Program-made: the position numbers and the translations under genes
Assembly (NCBI RefSeq): GCF_030345095.1
Contig: NZ_CP128360.1
Coordinates: 744,001 to 808,000 of the forward strand
Direction: 5' to 3'
Source of the DNA: Solwaraspora sp. WMMA2056
GTDB lineage: Bacteria > Actinomycetota > Actinomycetes > Mycobacteriales > Micromonosporaceae
DNA length: 64,000 nt
Part shown: piece by piece, positions 26,493 through 34,356 of the stretch
How positions within the stretch are numbered: the stretch's first letter is position 1
How the letters are laid out: every line of letters begins with the position of its first letter
The notes under the pieces: generated by a model
Databases searched by the model: none
The model's input: the letters and a program-made list of their open reading frames with translations, nothing else
What the model was told of the DNA's origin: nothing

Positions 26493-27749
26493 GTGGGCGC
26501 AAACCTATCCGCACCACTGGCGGTACTGGCCCTGGTGACCGCCCTGACCGTCGCGGTGTACGCGGTCGTCCGGCTCCGTGGCCGGCGGGGCATCGCCACC
26601 GCCACCCAACGGGCCACCTACGAGGTGCTGCACACCGCCGGCCTGGCCGCCGAGCCGCTGCGCAACGGTCTGGACGCCGCCGGCGCCGCCAAGGCCGTAC
26701 GGCATCTGCGCGCCCTGGTCGGGGCTCCCGGTGCCGCGCTCACCGGCCGCGACGAGGTACTCGCCTTCGACGGGCGCGGCGGCCACCACGGCGACCAGCT
26801 CGTCGCCGCGACCGGCCGGGCCCTGGACACCGGCCGGTCGGTCGTCCTGACCGCCCGGGACCTGCCCTGCGACCGCCCCGACTGCCTGATCCGCGGCGCC
26901 GTCGTCGCGCCGCTGACCGGGCCGGACCGGGCCGCTGCCGTGGCCCTGGTCGCCGTCGTCGACGACGATCCGGCACCCGGCCTGGTCCAGGCCACCCTGG
27001 AGACCGCGTACTGGGCCGGCAGCCAGCTGGCCCTGGCCGAGCTGGACTCGTCGCGGGAACGGCTCGCCCGCGCCGAGGTACGCGCGTTGCGGGCGCAGAT
27101 CAGCCCGCACTTCATCTACAACGCGCTGACCGCGATCGCCTCGTTCGTACGGACCGACCCGGAGCGGGCCCGGGACCTGATCCTGGAGTTCGCCGAGTTC
27201 ACCCGCTACTCGTTCCGGGCCCACGGCGAGTTCACCACGCTCGCCGAGGAGCTACGGTCCATCGACCGCTACCTGACCATCGAGCGGGCCCGGTTCGGTG
27301 AACGGCTCCAGGTGCGGCTGCAGATCGCCCCCGAGGTACTCCCCGTCCATCTGCCCTTCCTCTGTCTGCAGCCGTTGGTGGAGAATGCGGTCCGGCACGG
27401 GTTGTCCCGCAAACCGGGCCTCGGCACGGTCAGCATCGAGGCGCGCGACGCCGGCACCGAATGCCACATCACCGTGGAGGACGACGGAGTGGGGATGGAC
27501 CCGGCGGTGTTCACCGGCACCGGCACCGGCGCCGATCAGGTCCGTCGGGGCGGCGACCCGGCCGACGACGCCGGCCAGCACGTCGGCCTGTCGAACGTCG
27601 ACGAGCGGCTGCGGTCGGTTTTCGGCGACCAGTTCGGCCTGGTGGTGGAGACGGCGGTGGGAGCGGGTACGAAGGTCAGCATGCGGGTGCCGAAGTTCCA
27701 CCCCGACGCCCGGCCGGGCGCGGCCGGACGCTGGGAGGTGGTGTCGTGA
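26493..27749 (+). CDS. LytS-type sensor histidine kinase
   Basis: A 418-residue kinase with one N-terminal membrane span (about 6-28), a GAF-like middle (about 45-180) containing the pair DLPCDRPDC, then the His_kinase domain with the phosphorylated H206 in QISPHFIYNALTAI, and an ATPase domain with QPLVENAVRHGL and DDGVGMD. It autophosphorylates and passes phosphate to the next gene product; start and stop overlap by 4 bases (GTGA). The two conserved cysteines could sense redox state or bind a metal; this is inference. Start GTG 26493. Confidence 0.9.
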   Translation: MGANLSAPLAVLALVTALTVAVYAVVRLRGRRGIATATQRATYEVLHTAGLAAEPLRNGLDAAGAAKAVRHLRALVGAPGAALTGRDEVLAFDGRGGHHGDQLVAATGRALDTGRSVVLTARDLPCDRPDCLIRGAVVAPLTGPDRAAAVALVAVVDDDPAPGLVQATLETAYWAGSQLALAELDSSRERLARAEVRALRAQISPHFIYNALTAIASFVRTDPERARDLILEFAEFTRYSFRAHGEFTTLAEELRSIDRYLTIERARFGERLQVRLQIAPEVLPVHLPFLCLQPLVENAVRHGLSRKPGLGTVSIEARDAGTECHITVEDDGVGMDPAVFTGTGTGADQVRRGGDPADDAGQHVGLSNVDERLRSVFGDQFGLVVETAVGAGTKVSMRVPKFHPDARPGAAGRWEVVS

Positions 27750-28501
27750 CCCCGTTCCTGCGGGTGCTCGCCGTCGACGACGAGCCACCGGCCCTCGACG
27801 AGCTGGCGTACCTGCTGCGGGCCGACCCCCGGGTGGCCCGGCTGCACACGGCGTCCGACGCCACCGAGGCGCTGCGGGTACTGCGCGACACCGACGTGGA
27901 CGCGGTCTTCCTCGACATCCGGATGCCCGGCCTGGACGGTATGGAGCTGGCCCGGGTGCTGCGCCGGTTCGCCCGGCCGCCGGCGATCGTCTTCGTCACC
28001 GCCTACGACGACGCTGCGGTGGACGCGTTCGACCTGGGCGTCACCGACTACGTCCGCAAGCCGGTGCGGGCCGAGCGGCTGGCGGAGTCGGTCCGGCGGG
28101 TGCTGACCGCCCGGGTGGTGCCGTCGCATCCGGCGGCGATGGCCCGCAACGAGGAGGACCCGGCGATCCCGGTGGAGCTGGCCGGCACCACCCGGATGCT
28201 GCCCCGCTCGGCGGTCCGCTGGGTCGAGGCGCAGGGCGACTACGCGCGGTTGCACACTGCGGAAGGGTCGCATCTGGTCCGGGTCCCGCTGGCCACGCTG
28301 GGCGAGCGCTGGGCCGATGCCGGGTTCGTCCGGATCCACCGGTCGTTCCTGGTCCAGTTGCGGCTGATCACCGAACTGCGGCTGGCGAACTCCGGCTACG
28401 TCGTGGTGATCGACGGCACCGAGCTGCCGGTCTCCCGCCGGCACACCCGGGAGCTGAAGGACAAACTGGTCCGCGCCGCCAAGCACGACTGGGGCAAGTG
28501 A
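27746..28501 (+). CDS. LytTR-family response regulator
   Basis: A 251-residue regulator. The receiver domain has the acidic pocket DDE (11-13), phosphoacceptor D57 in VFLDIRMPGLDG, and the conserved lysine in DYVRKPV. The LytTR DNA-binding domain spans about 155-245 (RSAVRWVEAQGDYARLHT, FVRIHRSFLVQL, LPVSRRHTREL). LytTR proteins bind paired direct repeats. The GTG at 27746 follows GGGAGGTG and overlaps the kinase stop. Target genes are not adjacent. In actinomycetes this kinase/regulator type is often near carbon-uptake genes, which are absent here. Confidence 0.92.
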   Translation: MTPFLRVLAVDDEPPALDELAYLLRADPRVARLHTASDATEALRVLRDTDVDAVFLDIRMPGLDGMELARVLRRFARPPAIVFVTAYDDAAVDAFDLGVTDYVRKPVRAERLAESVRRVLTARVVPSHPAAMARNEEDPAIPVELAGTTRMLPRSAVRWVEAQGDYARLHTAEGSHLVRVPLATLGERWADAGFVRIHRSFLVQLRLITELRLANSGYVVVIDGTELPVSRRHTRELKDKLVRAAKHDWGK

Positions 28502-28541: not shown

Positions 28542-28943
28542 TCAGGCGGCGCGGCGGCGGCGCAGGGTGGCCACCGCGGAGCCGGCCAGAGTGAGCAGGC
28601 ACTCCGGCAGTTGCCCGTCGGCGAGAGCCGCGCCGAACAGCGCCTCCCCGGTCGAGCTGTCCGAGTTCGCGTAGGCGCTGATGAACCGCGCCACCCAGCG
28701 GGCGTCGTAGCGCGCCTCGTCGATGCCGGGAAAGTCGAGGGTCCAGCCACCGACCGGGACGTCGTCGCCGACCATCGTCGCGGCCAGGCACCACGCCACG
28801 TCGTAGGCACCGGCCACGCCGCTGCGGTCCACCACGGCGTCGAAGGCTCCGGCCACGCCGTCGCTGTCGCCGGCCAGGGCGGAGCGCAGGATCTCGGTGG
28901 CGTCGGTGAACGCCTCGTCGGCCCCGTCGCGTCGGTCGGTCAT
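28542..28943 (-). CDS. Hypothetical protein
   Basis: A 133-residue protein starting at ATG 28943, rich in Ala, Asp and Gly, without signal peptide or membrane span. It reads as a helical bundle with a few conserved-looking stretches (VAWCLAATMVGDDVP, GWTLDFPGIDEARYDARWVARFISAYAN). Codon third positions support a gene. I recognise no family. It converges with the response regulator; the short gap holds three GCCGGGCCGT repeats (about 28514-28540). Confidence 0.55.
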   Translation of the reverse strand: MTDRRDGADEAFTDATEILRSALAGDSDGVAGAFDAVVDRSGVAGAYDVAWCLAATMVGDDVPVGGWTLDFPGIDEARYDARWVARFISAYANSDSSTGEALFGAALADGQLPECLLTLAGSAVATLRRRRAA

Positions 28944-29111
28944 GAGCGGAAGGGTATGTCGCGTGGTCAAGGCGTGACCACCGAACCGCCCACGCGGTCG
29001 CAATGCCGCCCAACTGGCCGCCCGGCGGTCCGCGTACCATGCCTGACATCGCGTTTGAGCCGGTAAGACGCTAAGGTGCCCTGCGGACCTTCGGCCGATG
29101 GAGGACGTCCC

Positions 29112-30458
29112 ATGCCCGTGTCACGCGGCTCCCGCACCGCCGCCCTGGCCGTCTGCGCGACCCTGTTGGTCACCGCCTCCGGTTGCGGCGACACGTCGAC
29201 CACCGACGACGTCGCTGTCGAGCCCGTGCGGCTGTACGGCACCGACGGCAACATGATCAACTCCTTCGCGGCCGAGTTCGAGGATCAGGCGGGCCTGCTG
29301 TCCGGGATGAAGGGCACCAGCCCGCTGACGCCGCTGTCGGACGACTTCGTCGAACGGTTGCGCACCGTCGACGGCCAGCTCAACGACTTCCTGTACGCCG
29401 GTGAGGCCTACGACGCCGTGGTGATCAGTGCCCTCGCCACGCAGTTGGCCGGCACCACCGACCCGGCGGCCATCGCCGCCCAGATCAACGGTGTGACCAC
29501 CGGTGGCGAGCAGTGCGACACCGTGGCACTGTGCCTGGAGCTCGTCGAGGACGGCGTCGACATCGAGTACCGGGGCATCTCGCTGAAACGGGGCGGCTTC
29601 ACCGACGCCGGGGAGCCGTCGACGGCCAGCTACGCCACGTTGCACTTCGACGAGAACGGCCAGATCAACGACGGCAAGACCGAGTTCGTCGGTGCCGGTG
29701 ACGAGTCGACCACCACCACCGTGGCACCGCCGGCGGTGCCGCCGGCGAGCAACGGCAGTCGCACCGGCGCCCCGCTCAAGCTGGGCGGACTGCTGCCGCT
29801 GACCGGCGATCTGGCCCTGGCGTTCCCGCCGATGGACGCCGGCACCCAGCTCGCCCTGCGGGAGATCAACGCGGCGGGTGGGGTGCTCGGCGAGCCGGTC
29901 GAGTGGTTCGAGGGCGACGACGGCACCAACCCCGACGTGGCGCGGCAGACCGTGGCGCGGCACATCGAGGAAGGCGTTCACGTGATCATCGGTGCCGGCG
30001 CCTCCGGCATCTCCCGGGCGGTCCTGCCGGACGTCACCGGGGCCGGGATCATCCTCTTCTCGCCGTGCAACACCGACGCCGGGCTGAGCACCATCGACGA
30101 CAGTGGACTGTACTTCCGTACCGCGCCGTCGGACCTGCTGCAGGGTCGGGCGCTGGCGGACGTCATCATGCGCGACGGCCCGCAGCGGGTCGCGGTGGTC
30201 GCCCGCAAGGACTCGTACGGCGAGGGCCTGCAGGAGAACGTCCGGGCCGAACTGGACCGGGCGGGCATCGGCGCGGACCGGCTCAAGCTGCTCACCTACG
30301 ACCCCCCGGAGGGGGCGGACTCGCCGCCGGTCGACTTCACGGACGGTGCGCAGGAGATCAAGGCGTTCGGTGCCGACGCGATCCTGATCATCGGCTTCAG
30401 CGAGTCCGCTGAAGTGATCAAGGCACTGTCGGCGGCGGGACTGCCGGTCGCCGTCTGA
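29112..30458 (+). CDS. Substrate-binding lipoprotein with circularly permuted lobes (Leu/Ile/Val-binding type)
   Basis: A 448-residue lipoprotein; the lipobox LVTASGC puts the acylated cysteine at 25. Residues 38-197 match the C-terminal lobe of type I periplasmic binding proteins: LYGTDGNM, GMKGTSP, LYAGEAYDAVVISALA (about 95-110), AAQINGVTTGG, FTDAGEPSTASY. A Thr/Pro/Ser linker (about 198-220) follows. Residues 222-448 match the N-terminal lobe: LKLGGLLPLTGDLA, ALREINAAGGVLGEPVE, VIIGAGASG, YFRTAPSDLLQGRAL, VARKDSYG, ILIIGFSESAEVIKALSAAGLPV, and then the protein ends. Normal relatives have the two lobes in the opposite order. No permease genes are adjacent. Start ATG 29112 after GAGGAC. Confidence 0.85.
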   Translation: MPVSRGSRTAALAVCATLLVTASGCGDTSTTDDVAVEPVRLYGTDGNMINSFAAEFEDQAGLLSGMKGTSPLTPLSDDFVERLRTVDGQLNDFLYAGEAYDAVVISALATQLAGTTDPAAIAAQINGVTTGGEQCDTVALCLELVEDGVDIEYRGISLKRGGFTDAGEPSTASYATLHFDENGQINDGKTEFVGAGDESTTTTVAPPAVPPASNGSRTGAPLKLGGLLPLTGDLALAFPPMDAGTQLALREINAAGGVLGEPVEWFEGDDGTNPDVARQTVARHIEEGVHVIIGAGASGISRAVLPDVTGAGIILFSPCNTDAGLSTIDDSGLYFRTAPSDLLQGRALADVIMRDGPQRVAVVARKDSYGEGLQENVRAELDRAGIGADRLKLLTYDPPEGADSPPVDFTDGAQEIKAFGADAILIIGFSESAEVIKALSAAGLPVAV

Positions 30459-30567
30459 GGCTCCTCGGTCCCGCGCGGGTGGCACTTTCTCGGGATCACA
30501 CGAGCATCGCCGCTGCGTACGGTGGGTCCTGTCACCAGCCAGGATGATCTGCGAAAGAGGCGGCAGG

Positions 30568-31158
30568 ATGAGCGAGTACGTCGACCCGGACCTCAGTGCG
30601 TCGGCCGAGGCCGAACAGGGACTGGGCAGCAGCGACGACCCGGGCCACGACGCGGTCGGCTACGAGACGTACGGTGACGGCGCGTACACCGTCGTCCAGC
30701 ACCACATGGACGGCTCCACGGACGTGCTGATCGACCGCGACGGTGACGGCATGGCCGACGTCGTGATGCACGACGCCGACGGCGACGGCATCGCCGAGGT
30801 CACGATGCTGGACAACTCCGGCGACGGTCGGCTGGACACGATGCTGCGGGACTTCGACGACGACGGCATCGCCGACGAGATCAGCATGGACACCAACGGC
30901 GACGGCCGGATCGACGTGGTCTCCTCCGACAGCGACGGTGACGGGCTGATCGACCGGGTGGCCGCCGACACCGATCACGACGGCCGGGTCGACACCTGGA
31001 GCAGGGACACCGACTTCGACGGCCGGACCGACGAGGTGCGGGTCGACCTGACCGGCGACGGGGTGGCCGACCAGGTGCTGCGCGACACCGATCACGACGG
31101 GGTGGCGGACACCGTGAGTTACCTGAACCCGGCGGTCAACCCGTACGCGGCGAGATGA
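30568..31158 (+). CDS. DxDxDG-repeat (EF-hand-like) acidic protein
   Basis: A 196-residue acidic protein without signal peptide. From about residue 55 to 185 it is built of roughly eleven 12-residue units of the form DxDGDGxADxVxx (for example DRDGDGMADVVM, DADGDGIAEVTM, DTDHDGVADTVS), each like an EF-hand calcium loop without flanking helices. Such repeats bind Ca2+ in extracellular proteins; here export is not evident. The start is ATG 30568, after AGGCGGCAGG. A shorter paralogue follows, so a duplication is likely. Function unknown. Confidence 0.75.
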   Translation: MSEYVDPDLSASAEAEQGLGSSDDPGHDAVGYETYGDGAYTVVQHHMDGSTDVLIDRDGDGMADVVMHDADGDGIAEVTMLDNSGDGRLDTMLRDFDDDGIADEISMDTNGDGRIDVVSSDSDGDGLIDRVAADTDHDGRVDTWSRDTDFDGRTDEVRVDLTGDGVADQVLRDTDHDGVADTVSYLNPAVNPYAAR

Positions 31159-31241
31159 GCCCGGCTCGGGTCGCGGCGGGCCGGATGGCACCCTACTGTC
31201 ACATCCGCCAGCACTTGTGACGCAGCGATGGAGGACCTGGG

Positions 31242-31490
31242 ATGACCGAGGCACCGGAGACCGTGGAGACCCGCGGCGACGATCGGGTCGACCTGCTCAA
31301 GGCCGACACCAACAATGACGGGCAGACCGACGTGTGGGTGGTCGACACCGACGGCGACGGCAAGGCCGACATGTACCAGTTCGACACCGACGGCGACGGC
31401 AAGGTGGACATCACCATGGTCGACCTGGACGAGGACGGTACGCCGGACGAGGTCGTCGACGGTGACGGCGGGCACCCGCCGACGAGCTGA
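31242..31490 (+). CDS. Short DxDxDG-repeat protein, paralogue of the preceding gene
   Basis: An 82-residue acidic protein with five repeat units of the same type (DTNNDGQTDVWV, DTDGDGKADMYQ, DTDGDGKVDITM, DLDEDGTPDEVV). It has no signal peptide. Its own ATG (31242) follows GGACCTGGG. A strong hairpin ends the transcript at 31511-31548. Calcium binding is plausible; the role is unknown. Confidence 0.72.
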   Translation: MTEAPETVETRGDDRVDLLKADTNNDGQTDVWVVDTDGDGKADMYQFDTDGDGKVDITMVDLDEDGTPDEVVDGDGGHPPTS

Positions 31491-33041: not shown

Positions 33042-33243
33042 GGCGCGATCCTCCCACGAAACCGCGCGGCACCGCCCCTGCCGGGAGCAAACGCACCCGA
33101 CACCCGGCTCGGGACCAGTAGCGGTGTGACCAGGATGCGCCGCGGTGCCGCCAATCGATACTAGTCTCGTTTCCAGCGGGTCCACCGGCCCGCCTCCCCG
33201 GACAGCACCCCACGACGGTGCTCCACCCGCCTCAGGAGTCACG

Positions 33244-34356
33244 ATGGGCGTCTTCGCCACCACCGCCGAGCCCGGCACCGGGCACGAACAGGTCGTCTTC
33301 TGTCAGGACCAGCCGACCGGGCTACGAGCCATCATCGCCATCTACTCGACCGCGCTCGGGCCCGCCCTCGGCGGTACCCGGTTCTACCCGTACGCCTCGG
33401 AAGCCGACGCCCTGCACGACGTGCTGGAGCTGTCCCGGGGGATGGCCTACAAGAACGCCATGGCCGGGCTCGACCTCGGCGGCGGCAAGGCGGTCATCTG
33501 GGGAGATCCGGACCAGCTCAAGACCGAGGCGTTGCTGCGCGCGTACGGCCGGTTCGTCGAGTCGCTCGGCGGCCGGTACTACACCGCCTGCGACGTCGGC
33601 ACCTACGTCCCGGACATGGACGTGGTGGCCAGGGAGACGCGGTTCGCCACCGGGCGCAGCCGGGAGTCCGGCGGGGCCGGCGACTCGTCGATCCTCACCG
33701 CGTGGGGGGTCTTCCAGGCCATGCGGGCCGCGGCCGAACACCGTTGGGGCTCACCCAGCCTCGCCGGCCGCCGCGTCGGCATCGCCGGCCTGGGCAAGGT
33801 CGGCCGGTACCTGACCGGCCACCTGCTCGACGAGGGCGCCTCGGTGGTCGCCACCGACGTCGACGAACGGGCCACGGACTGGGCCCACACGACGTACCCG
33901 CAGGTGGATCTGGTCGCCGACACCGACACGCTGATCCGCAGCGACATCGACGTGTACGCGCCCTGCGCGCTGGGTGGGGCACTCGACGACGACACCGTGG
34001 CGGCGCTGCGCGCCCCGGTGGTGGTCGGCGCGGCCAACAACCAGTTGGCCCACCCCGGTGTCGAGAAGCAGCTCGCCGAGCGGGGCATCCTCTACGCGCC
34101 CGACTACGTGGTCAACGCCGGCGGCGTCATCCAGGTCGCCGACGAGGTCACCGGGGCCTCGGCGCTCTCCGCCAGCGGCCGGTACGGCTTCGATTTCGAC
34201 CGGGCCAAGGCCCGGGCCACCCGGATCTACCAGACGACGCTGCGGATCCTCCGTACGGCCGACGCCGACGGCGTACCGCCCGCGGTCGCGGCGGACCGGC
34301 TCGCCGAACGGCGGATGGCTGAGGTCGGTCGGCTGCGTGGCATCCACCTCCGCTGA
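33244..34356 (+). CDS. vdh: Leu/Val/Phe dehydrogenase (valine dehydrogenase type)
   Basis: A 370-residue member of the Glu/Leu/Phe/Val dehydrogenase family. The substrate side has GPALGGTRF (about 39-47), [17 protein letters not shown] with K70 and K82, and the NAD domain has [22 protein letters not shown] and [11 protein letters not shown] follow. It removes the amino group of branched-chain amino acids to 2-oxo acids, using NAD+. In Streptomyces vdh lies close to bldC as here, and it supplies acyl-CoA precursors. Start ATG 33244 with AGGAG. Confidence 0.93.

Follow-up and report, generated by a model that had tools for sequence, protein, structure and literature searches.

Binding proteins with rearranged chains have been met before. 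Among the type II glycine-betaine binding proteins, OpuAC and ProX are reported to differ in the order of their parts, a change called "domain dislocation"; they form another structural class than the protein described here, which is encoded within the window (the whole stretch of 64,000 nucleotides that was analysed). The canonical Leu/Ile/Val (LIV)-type binding proteins (PF13458; LivJ/LivK, Atu2422, 4n0q, 4gnr) have in common with the window protein the sequence of both parts, the pocket residues Ser, Thr, Tyr and Asp, and the lipoprotein form. They differ from it in the order of the parts, which is swapped in the window protein, and in the linker that it carries between the old chain ends. 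The liv neighbours of canonical genes are shared by the other permuted groups described below, whereas the window's group is without them.

One type I binding protein tethered to the membrane is already described as naturally permuted: TpMglB-2 (Tp0684) of Treponema pallidum, for which, together with its homologues, the designation "Type Ic / Cluster Bc" was proposed (PMC4990184). According to that paper, the protein is able to bind its ligand despite the permutation, changing shape as it does so. It belongs to a sugar family found in spirochaetes and Gram-positives; the three strands that open its N-lobe have moved to the end of the chain, creating a fourth crossover, and the moved part has a poor sequence match (PMC4990184). 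As so described, TpMglB-2 is cut in the N-lobe, with its fourth crossover, and is a member of the MglB-type sugar family, whereas the window protein is cut before the strand bearing the ligand Asp, at about position 221 of the model introduced below, and its sequence relatives are LIV-type. Other natural permutations are the saposin/swaposin pair and the DNA methyltransferases, which a review treats together with a permutation-by-duplication model, noting permutation intermediates for the methyltransferases (PMC3320104). These cases concern other folds; here, a single genus has both orders beside the same operon. A literature search covering open-licence papers found no report of permuted LIV-type binding proteins. 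With TpMglB-2, type I binding proteins already have a known case of permutation; what surprises in the present case is the repeated origin.

With considerable confidence, we read the window gene as encoding a lipid-anchored LIV-type amino-acid binding protein whose second part precedes its first, the outcome of one of about five permutations and an orphan in its lineage.

Chain order of the window protein

The open reading frame at 29112-30458 on the + strand is intact, running from ATG to TGA over 448 codons for amino acids. Its layout, with the pocket residues discussed later, is as follows.

29112..30458, + strand: circularly permuted Leu/Ile/Val-type substrate-binding protein, probably a lipoprotein, 448 aa (open reading frame, Pfam, PDB, canonical-relative model)
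29112..29186, + strand: signal peptide with lipobox-like end (TASGC); Cys25 is the presumed lipid anchor (alignment A1)
29187..29225, + strand: short tether, residues 26-38 (alignment)
29226..29699, + strand: canonical second part, now first, residues ~39-196, model positions ~223-371 (canonical-relative model)
29244..29246, + strand: Asp45, equivalent to Asp226 of Atu2422, ligand pocket (canonical alignments, conservation)
29700..29771, + strand: Thr/Pro/Ser-rich linker from the old C-terminus to the old N-terminus, residues ~197-220 (alignment)
29772..30455, + strand: canonical first part, now second, residues ~221-448, model positions ~3-218 (Pfam, canonical-relative model)
30003..30005, + strand: Ser298, equivalent to Ser79 of LIV-type proteins (alignment, conservation)
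30072..30074, + strand: Thr321, equivalent to Thr102 of LIV-type proteins (alignment, conservation)
30216..30218, + strand: Tyr369, equivalent to Tyr150 of LIV-type proteins (alignment, conservation)

The signal peptide ending in TASGC makes the protein probably a lipoprotein. Cys25 is present in all 14 rows of alignment A1 that cover the region, two of the 16 rows stopping short of it.

The swapped order is seen with three kinds of reference. The Pfam profile Peripla_BP_6 (PF13458) matches residues 221-445 with its positions 1-216 of 343 (E 1.4e-39), that is, the second half of the chain, and standard profiles may annotate only half of such a protein. The remainder matches LIV-type relatives out of order, both in PDB chain 4mlc and in a canonical-relative model. 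Residues 243-375 align with 28-160 of 4mlc and residues 70-125 with 259-315, so that the order is reversed, the second piece being weak by itself at 12.4 bits. The model, of 376 positions and built from 49 canonical relatives, finds two domains in swapped order (148 and 234 bits, 383 in total). Canonical relatives align across both parts in the usual order, and in one of them, L064, Peripla_BP_6 positions 1-312 are matched in one stretch. When the halves of the window protein are re-ordered computationally, a single match extends over model positions 3-371 with 396 bits. The gain over 383 bits is small because both halves are detected anyway, and the decisive fact is their order. The circular permutation that had been proposed from the sequence is confirmed by these alignments, the half-swap alignment included; a standard-order alignment was looked for with Pfam, the PDB and the canonical model, and none covers the whole protein. 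The window protein thus fails the canonical chain order, and a type I circular permutation is present at the sequence level. The Thr/Pro/Ser linker, also foreseen, sits where the old chain ends join.

Structure prediction had been suggested as a check. The AlphaFold model, made with 16 sequences, is of moderate quality (mean pLDDT 74.3, pTM 0.73), the first half being the lower. In a Foldseek search with it, solved Leu/Ile/Val-binding proteins rank first (TMt 0.56), but over only about 229 columns. The second half is roughly this long, as expected when a sequential aligner meets a permuted chain, and the match does not establish the complete fold.

Permuted groups, cut sites and ligand pocket

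Searches over the class, order, family and phylum found many canonical relatives, and permuted ones in several lineages other than that of the window. The permuted proteins fall into the following groups.

Group A: Micromonosporaceae, including the window protein
Group B: f67 and f108, 4 of 119 genomes of the class
Group C: f54, 2 of 66 genomes of the class, the group consisting of these two genomes only
Group D: f26, 4 of 4 genomes, and one genus of f36, with four full-length matches and one partial match among 128 genomes of the order
Group E: one genus of f28, present in 9 of 147 genomes, one match being partial
Group F: family f131, of the same order as the window, 45 of 57 genomes

Across loci, open reading frames of at least 330 aa with E up to 1e-30 comprised 98 permuted and 70 canonical proteins, and among these 168 no other chain order occurred. 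All 30 permuted proteins tested against the 376-position model gave two domains in C-N order, and re-ordering turned these into one continuous match in 27. Three group B proteins still matched in two pieces, and re-ordering added only 0-3 bits to the six proteins of B and C, since the site of groups A, D and E was used to re-order all of them.

The chain has been opened at two places, at about position 221 or about 242 of 376, before or after the Y-x-x-D-G-N strand segment. The part that comes first in the canonical chain, and last here, reaches model position 214-223 in group A, 221 in F, 221-222 in D and 219-222 in E; in B and C it extends further, to 243 and 241 respectively. The Asp of the motif is model position 229 and aligns with Asp226 of Atu2422. 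The window protein is cut about 20 positions ahead of the B and C place, where the cut falls directly before a GMKGT segment that we take to be the point at which a LivJ-type chain crosses back to lobe 1. Two anatomical details of the original prediction have to be given up. The cut had been placed exactly at a hinge; it precedes the strand YGTDGN, about 6 to 11 model positions ahead of the ligand Asp, and this is not a crossover. Nor does the C-terminal lobe come first, since the halves are not lobes: by LivJ anatomy, the first half presumably contains pieces of both.

The pocket Ser, Thr, Tyr and Asp are identical in all 89 distinct permuted sequences (56 in A, 11 in F, 4 in B, 2 in C, 8 in D and 8 in E; distinct rows only were counted), and the 70 canonical proteins have the same four residues, except for one Glu in place of Asp. 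We assume that the equivalents of Ser79, Thr102 and Tyr150 play the ligand roles of LivJ/Atu2422-type pockets, and that the equivalent of Asp226 binds the amine. Such conservation speaks for an alpha-amino acid, or a compound close to one, as the ligand of the permuted proteins. With an unchanged pocket, the usual two-lobed clamp is to be expected: the chain would fold into this clamp and bind an alpha-amino acid, with the new chain ends in the loop before the ligand-Asp strand and a flexible linker bridging the old ends. With the new ends in that loop, the tether would enter a few residues from the Asp.

Neighbouring genes and probable role

The absence of an adjacent permease, remarked on in the original prediction, is upheld. 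Queries with LivM, LivH and LivG (tblastn) gave no match anywhere in the window, and liv genes accompany the permuted gene in none of 65 group A loci, some genomes being counted twice; 31 of these loci have 4 kb or more of flank on each side. Elsewhere, LivG (at least 55% identity) together with LivH lies near the permuted gene in 4/4 loci of group B, 1/2 of C, 8/8 of D, 8/8 of E and 9/11 of F; of the 70 canonical genes, 62 likewise have them nearby. Four of the canonical misses (L100, L101, L116, L136), and the miss in group C, have less than 4 kb of flank on at least one side; at the other four (L061, L104, L122, L152), liv genes were unmatched despite more than 4 kb on both sides. Both misses in group F, L163 and L164, are second permuted copies without liv neighbours.

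Two side observations concern these misses. The second copies L163 and L164 of f131 parallel the orphan state of the window's group. At the canonical loci L061 and L152 of f28, an ANTAR regulator is present and no liv genes were matched within about 5 kb.

In group E, the permuted gene stands at 8/8 loci between pyruvate kinase and ANTAR genes to one side and liv genes to the opposite side. Of 13 canonical loci in that genus, 9 are arranged in this way, the ANTAR gene lying beyond the liv genes in the other four. From the common arrangement it follows that in this genus the permuted gene occupies the place of the canonical gene.

Since group A lacks liv neighbours, the window protein counts as an orphan, its nearest permuted kin, group F, being mostly beside liv genes. 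In the other groups the gene lies mostly by liv genes, and its product presumably delivers ligand to the transporter. For the window's lineage, where the gene lies away from a liv locus, the protein most likely acts either as an amino-acid receptor without a transporter of its own or as the binding component of a permease encoded at a distance. The proposal of a receptor role is to this extent plausible for the window's group, but it does not carry over to the other permuted groups, which are mostly beside transporter genes. That the orphan is an additional binding protein for a liv-type permease whose genes lie at another locus is an appreciable possibility, though somewhat less likely than not. 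Among the matches listed, at least 15 of the 85 family genomes with a permuted gene also gave canonical matches, and L064, L086 and L087 are at a liv locus. The window genome itself has one distant canonical binding protein and two distant LivG matches (38% and 34% identity), one of them near a gene for a distant binding protein. Against such service stands the search of the window genome for a close liv locus of the LIV-binding family, in which none was found.

Four further items surround the gene. A small divergent gene is kept beside the permuted gene.

28542..29003, - strand: small divergent neighbour gene, present in 30 of 39 loci with mean identity of 71%

It has no Pfam or NCBIfam match, and a functional link to the permuted gene might be supposed; the 39 loci of this neighbour survey, like the 65 above, include some genomes twice. 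Further upstream, at 26493-28501 (+), lie a histidine kinase (Pfam His_kinase) and then a regulator that appears LytTR-like by eye. A link to these two-component genes was considered and rejected, as the adjacency occurs only in four same-genus loci, whose flanks are 1.5 kb long; other relatives lack it. Downstream, a Glu/Leu/Phe/Val dehydrogenase gene (33145-34356, +) begins about 2.7 kb away, and the two genes are close to each other in 6 of 39 loci; a connection with branched-chain amino acids is only a thought. Closer by, at 30544-31490 (+), are acidic Asp-Gly repeat proteins, the second of which is conserved in 28 of 39 loci and resembles FG-GAP, EF-hand and DUF6802 weakly, with matches that do not reach the cut-offs.

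Number of origins and maintenance of the gene

In trees made from re-ordered alignments, the permuted proteins form five separate groups amid the canonical ones, A and F standing together. Five changes of order are forced by well-supported branches both in a tree of 79 rows, from which near-copies of group A were omitted (the permuted rows of L003-L049, L081, L083 and L089), and in one of 93 rows, to which the new family was added and which took 37 of the 98 permuted and 56 of the 70 canonical proteins. Trees from each half alone also give five changes, four of them forced. The node joining A and F has support of only 93/51 in the 93-row tree. We considered whether the permuted f131 genes (group F) represent a sixth origin and set this aside, as they join the window's group at this node and have the same cut site.

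One-clade tests agree with separate origins, with p values that are somewhat optimistic, the grouping having been made with the first tree already in view. A single clade of all permuted proteins is rejected (p=7.5e-72), as are A+F+D+E, which share a cut site (p=3.1e-7), A+D+E (p=3.3e-5) and D+E (p=0.0072). For B+C, p=0.019 with the first alignment and p=3.0e-6 with the second; A+B (p=0.028) and A+F+B (p=0.037) are weakly rejected. About five independent permutations therefore seem to have taken place in one family of binding proteins for liv transporters in Actinomycetota, to judge from these sequences. From the tree alone, four origins would be the safer count, and for B against the window's group the cut sites are the better argument, since different cut sites set B apart from A and F independently of the tree.

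The "five changes" could also count returns to the canonical order, and one event with a later shift of the cut may be imagined. More fully stated, after one ancient permutation, the canonical order might have been regained several times, or genes might have been exchanged among lineages. The cuts of A, D, E and F within a few residues of each other would suit such a history, and so would the weak rejections of A+B, A+F+B and, with the first alignment, B+C, which are the weak spots in the case against a single event. We think it improbable, given the rejection both of a single permuted clade and of one clade for the groups with a common cut site, the equal number of changes from both halves, and the existence of two cut sites; moreover, each return would be a permutation in itself.

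As to how the permutation arose, tandem duplication with loss of the outer halves had been proposed. It is compatible with the data in that relatives have tandem pairs of separate canonical genes on one strand, about 0.2 to 1.1 kb apart (L059, L127, L154, L155), but none of the 168 proteins is a fused intermediate. A looser scan of open reading frames of at least 60 aa, made before the last loci were added, gave 87 permuted and 64 canonical proteins and one weak first-half fragment (L045, 30 bits). By eye, the residues before the first strand are alike in the permuted linker and the canonical tether of several groups (GDG in E; PL in A and in L057/L058). It is plausible that the permuted gene originated by tandem duplication, the second tether serving as the linker. 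Fission and fusion, which a review gives as the other standard route to permutation, may be the alternative (PMC3320104).

It is tempting to propose, though only tentatively, that permutation struck this family no fewer than five times, with cuts at two places close together and at least once within its own transporter locus, that a long disordered lipoprotein tether, providing a linker from the start, and tandem gene copies ease the change, and that a shift of the membrane anchor to the Asp-bearing part may be selected, in one lineage releasing the protein from its transporter to serve as a receptor. With near relatives of both orders side by side, unchanged pocket residues and a rearrangement that seemingly recurs, the family amounts to a natural experiment on how far a protein chain can be rearranged without loss of function. 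As both orders stand side by side with the same pocket, the cost of permutation, the effect of anchor position and the origin of the gene can be asked about directly; the question of anchor position concerns the clamp protein and its transporter alike.

The gene is widespread in the window's family. Of 121 sampled Micromonosporaceae genomes, 103 have a match, and among the matches listed, from which the weakest rows are absent, at least 85 have the full-length permuted gene, at least 12 of these in two copies. Relatives occur in Micromonospora, Phytohabitans, Pilimelia, Hamadaea and Dactylosporangium, and in nine out of nine pairwise comparisons of the window gene with relatives, dN/dS falls within 0.09-0.40.

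These values bear on two further explanations. It is very unlikely that the orphan of the window's lineage is a degenerate leftover that lost both transporter and function: the lack of liv genes nearby, the low identity of the LivG matches in the window genome and the long branch leading to the window's group (0.62) would fit such decay, whereas the wide occurrence of the full-length gene, the low dN/dS and the pocket identity in 56/56 distinct group A sequences contradict it. An assembly error, a frameshift or a chance fusion of two genes, for which nothing was found in favour, has a negligible probability, the same full-length architecture recurring across many independent assemblies with dN/dS in the range just given.
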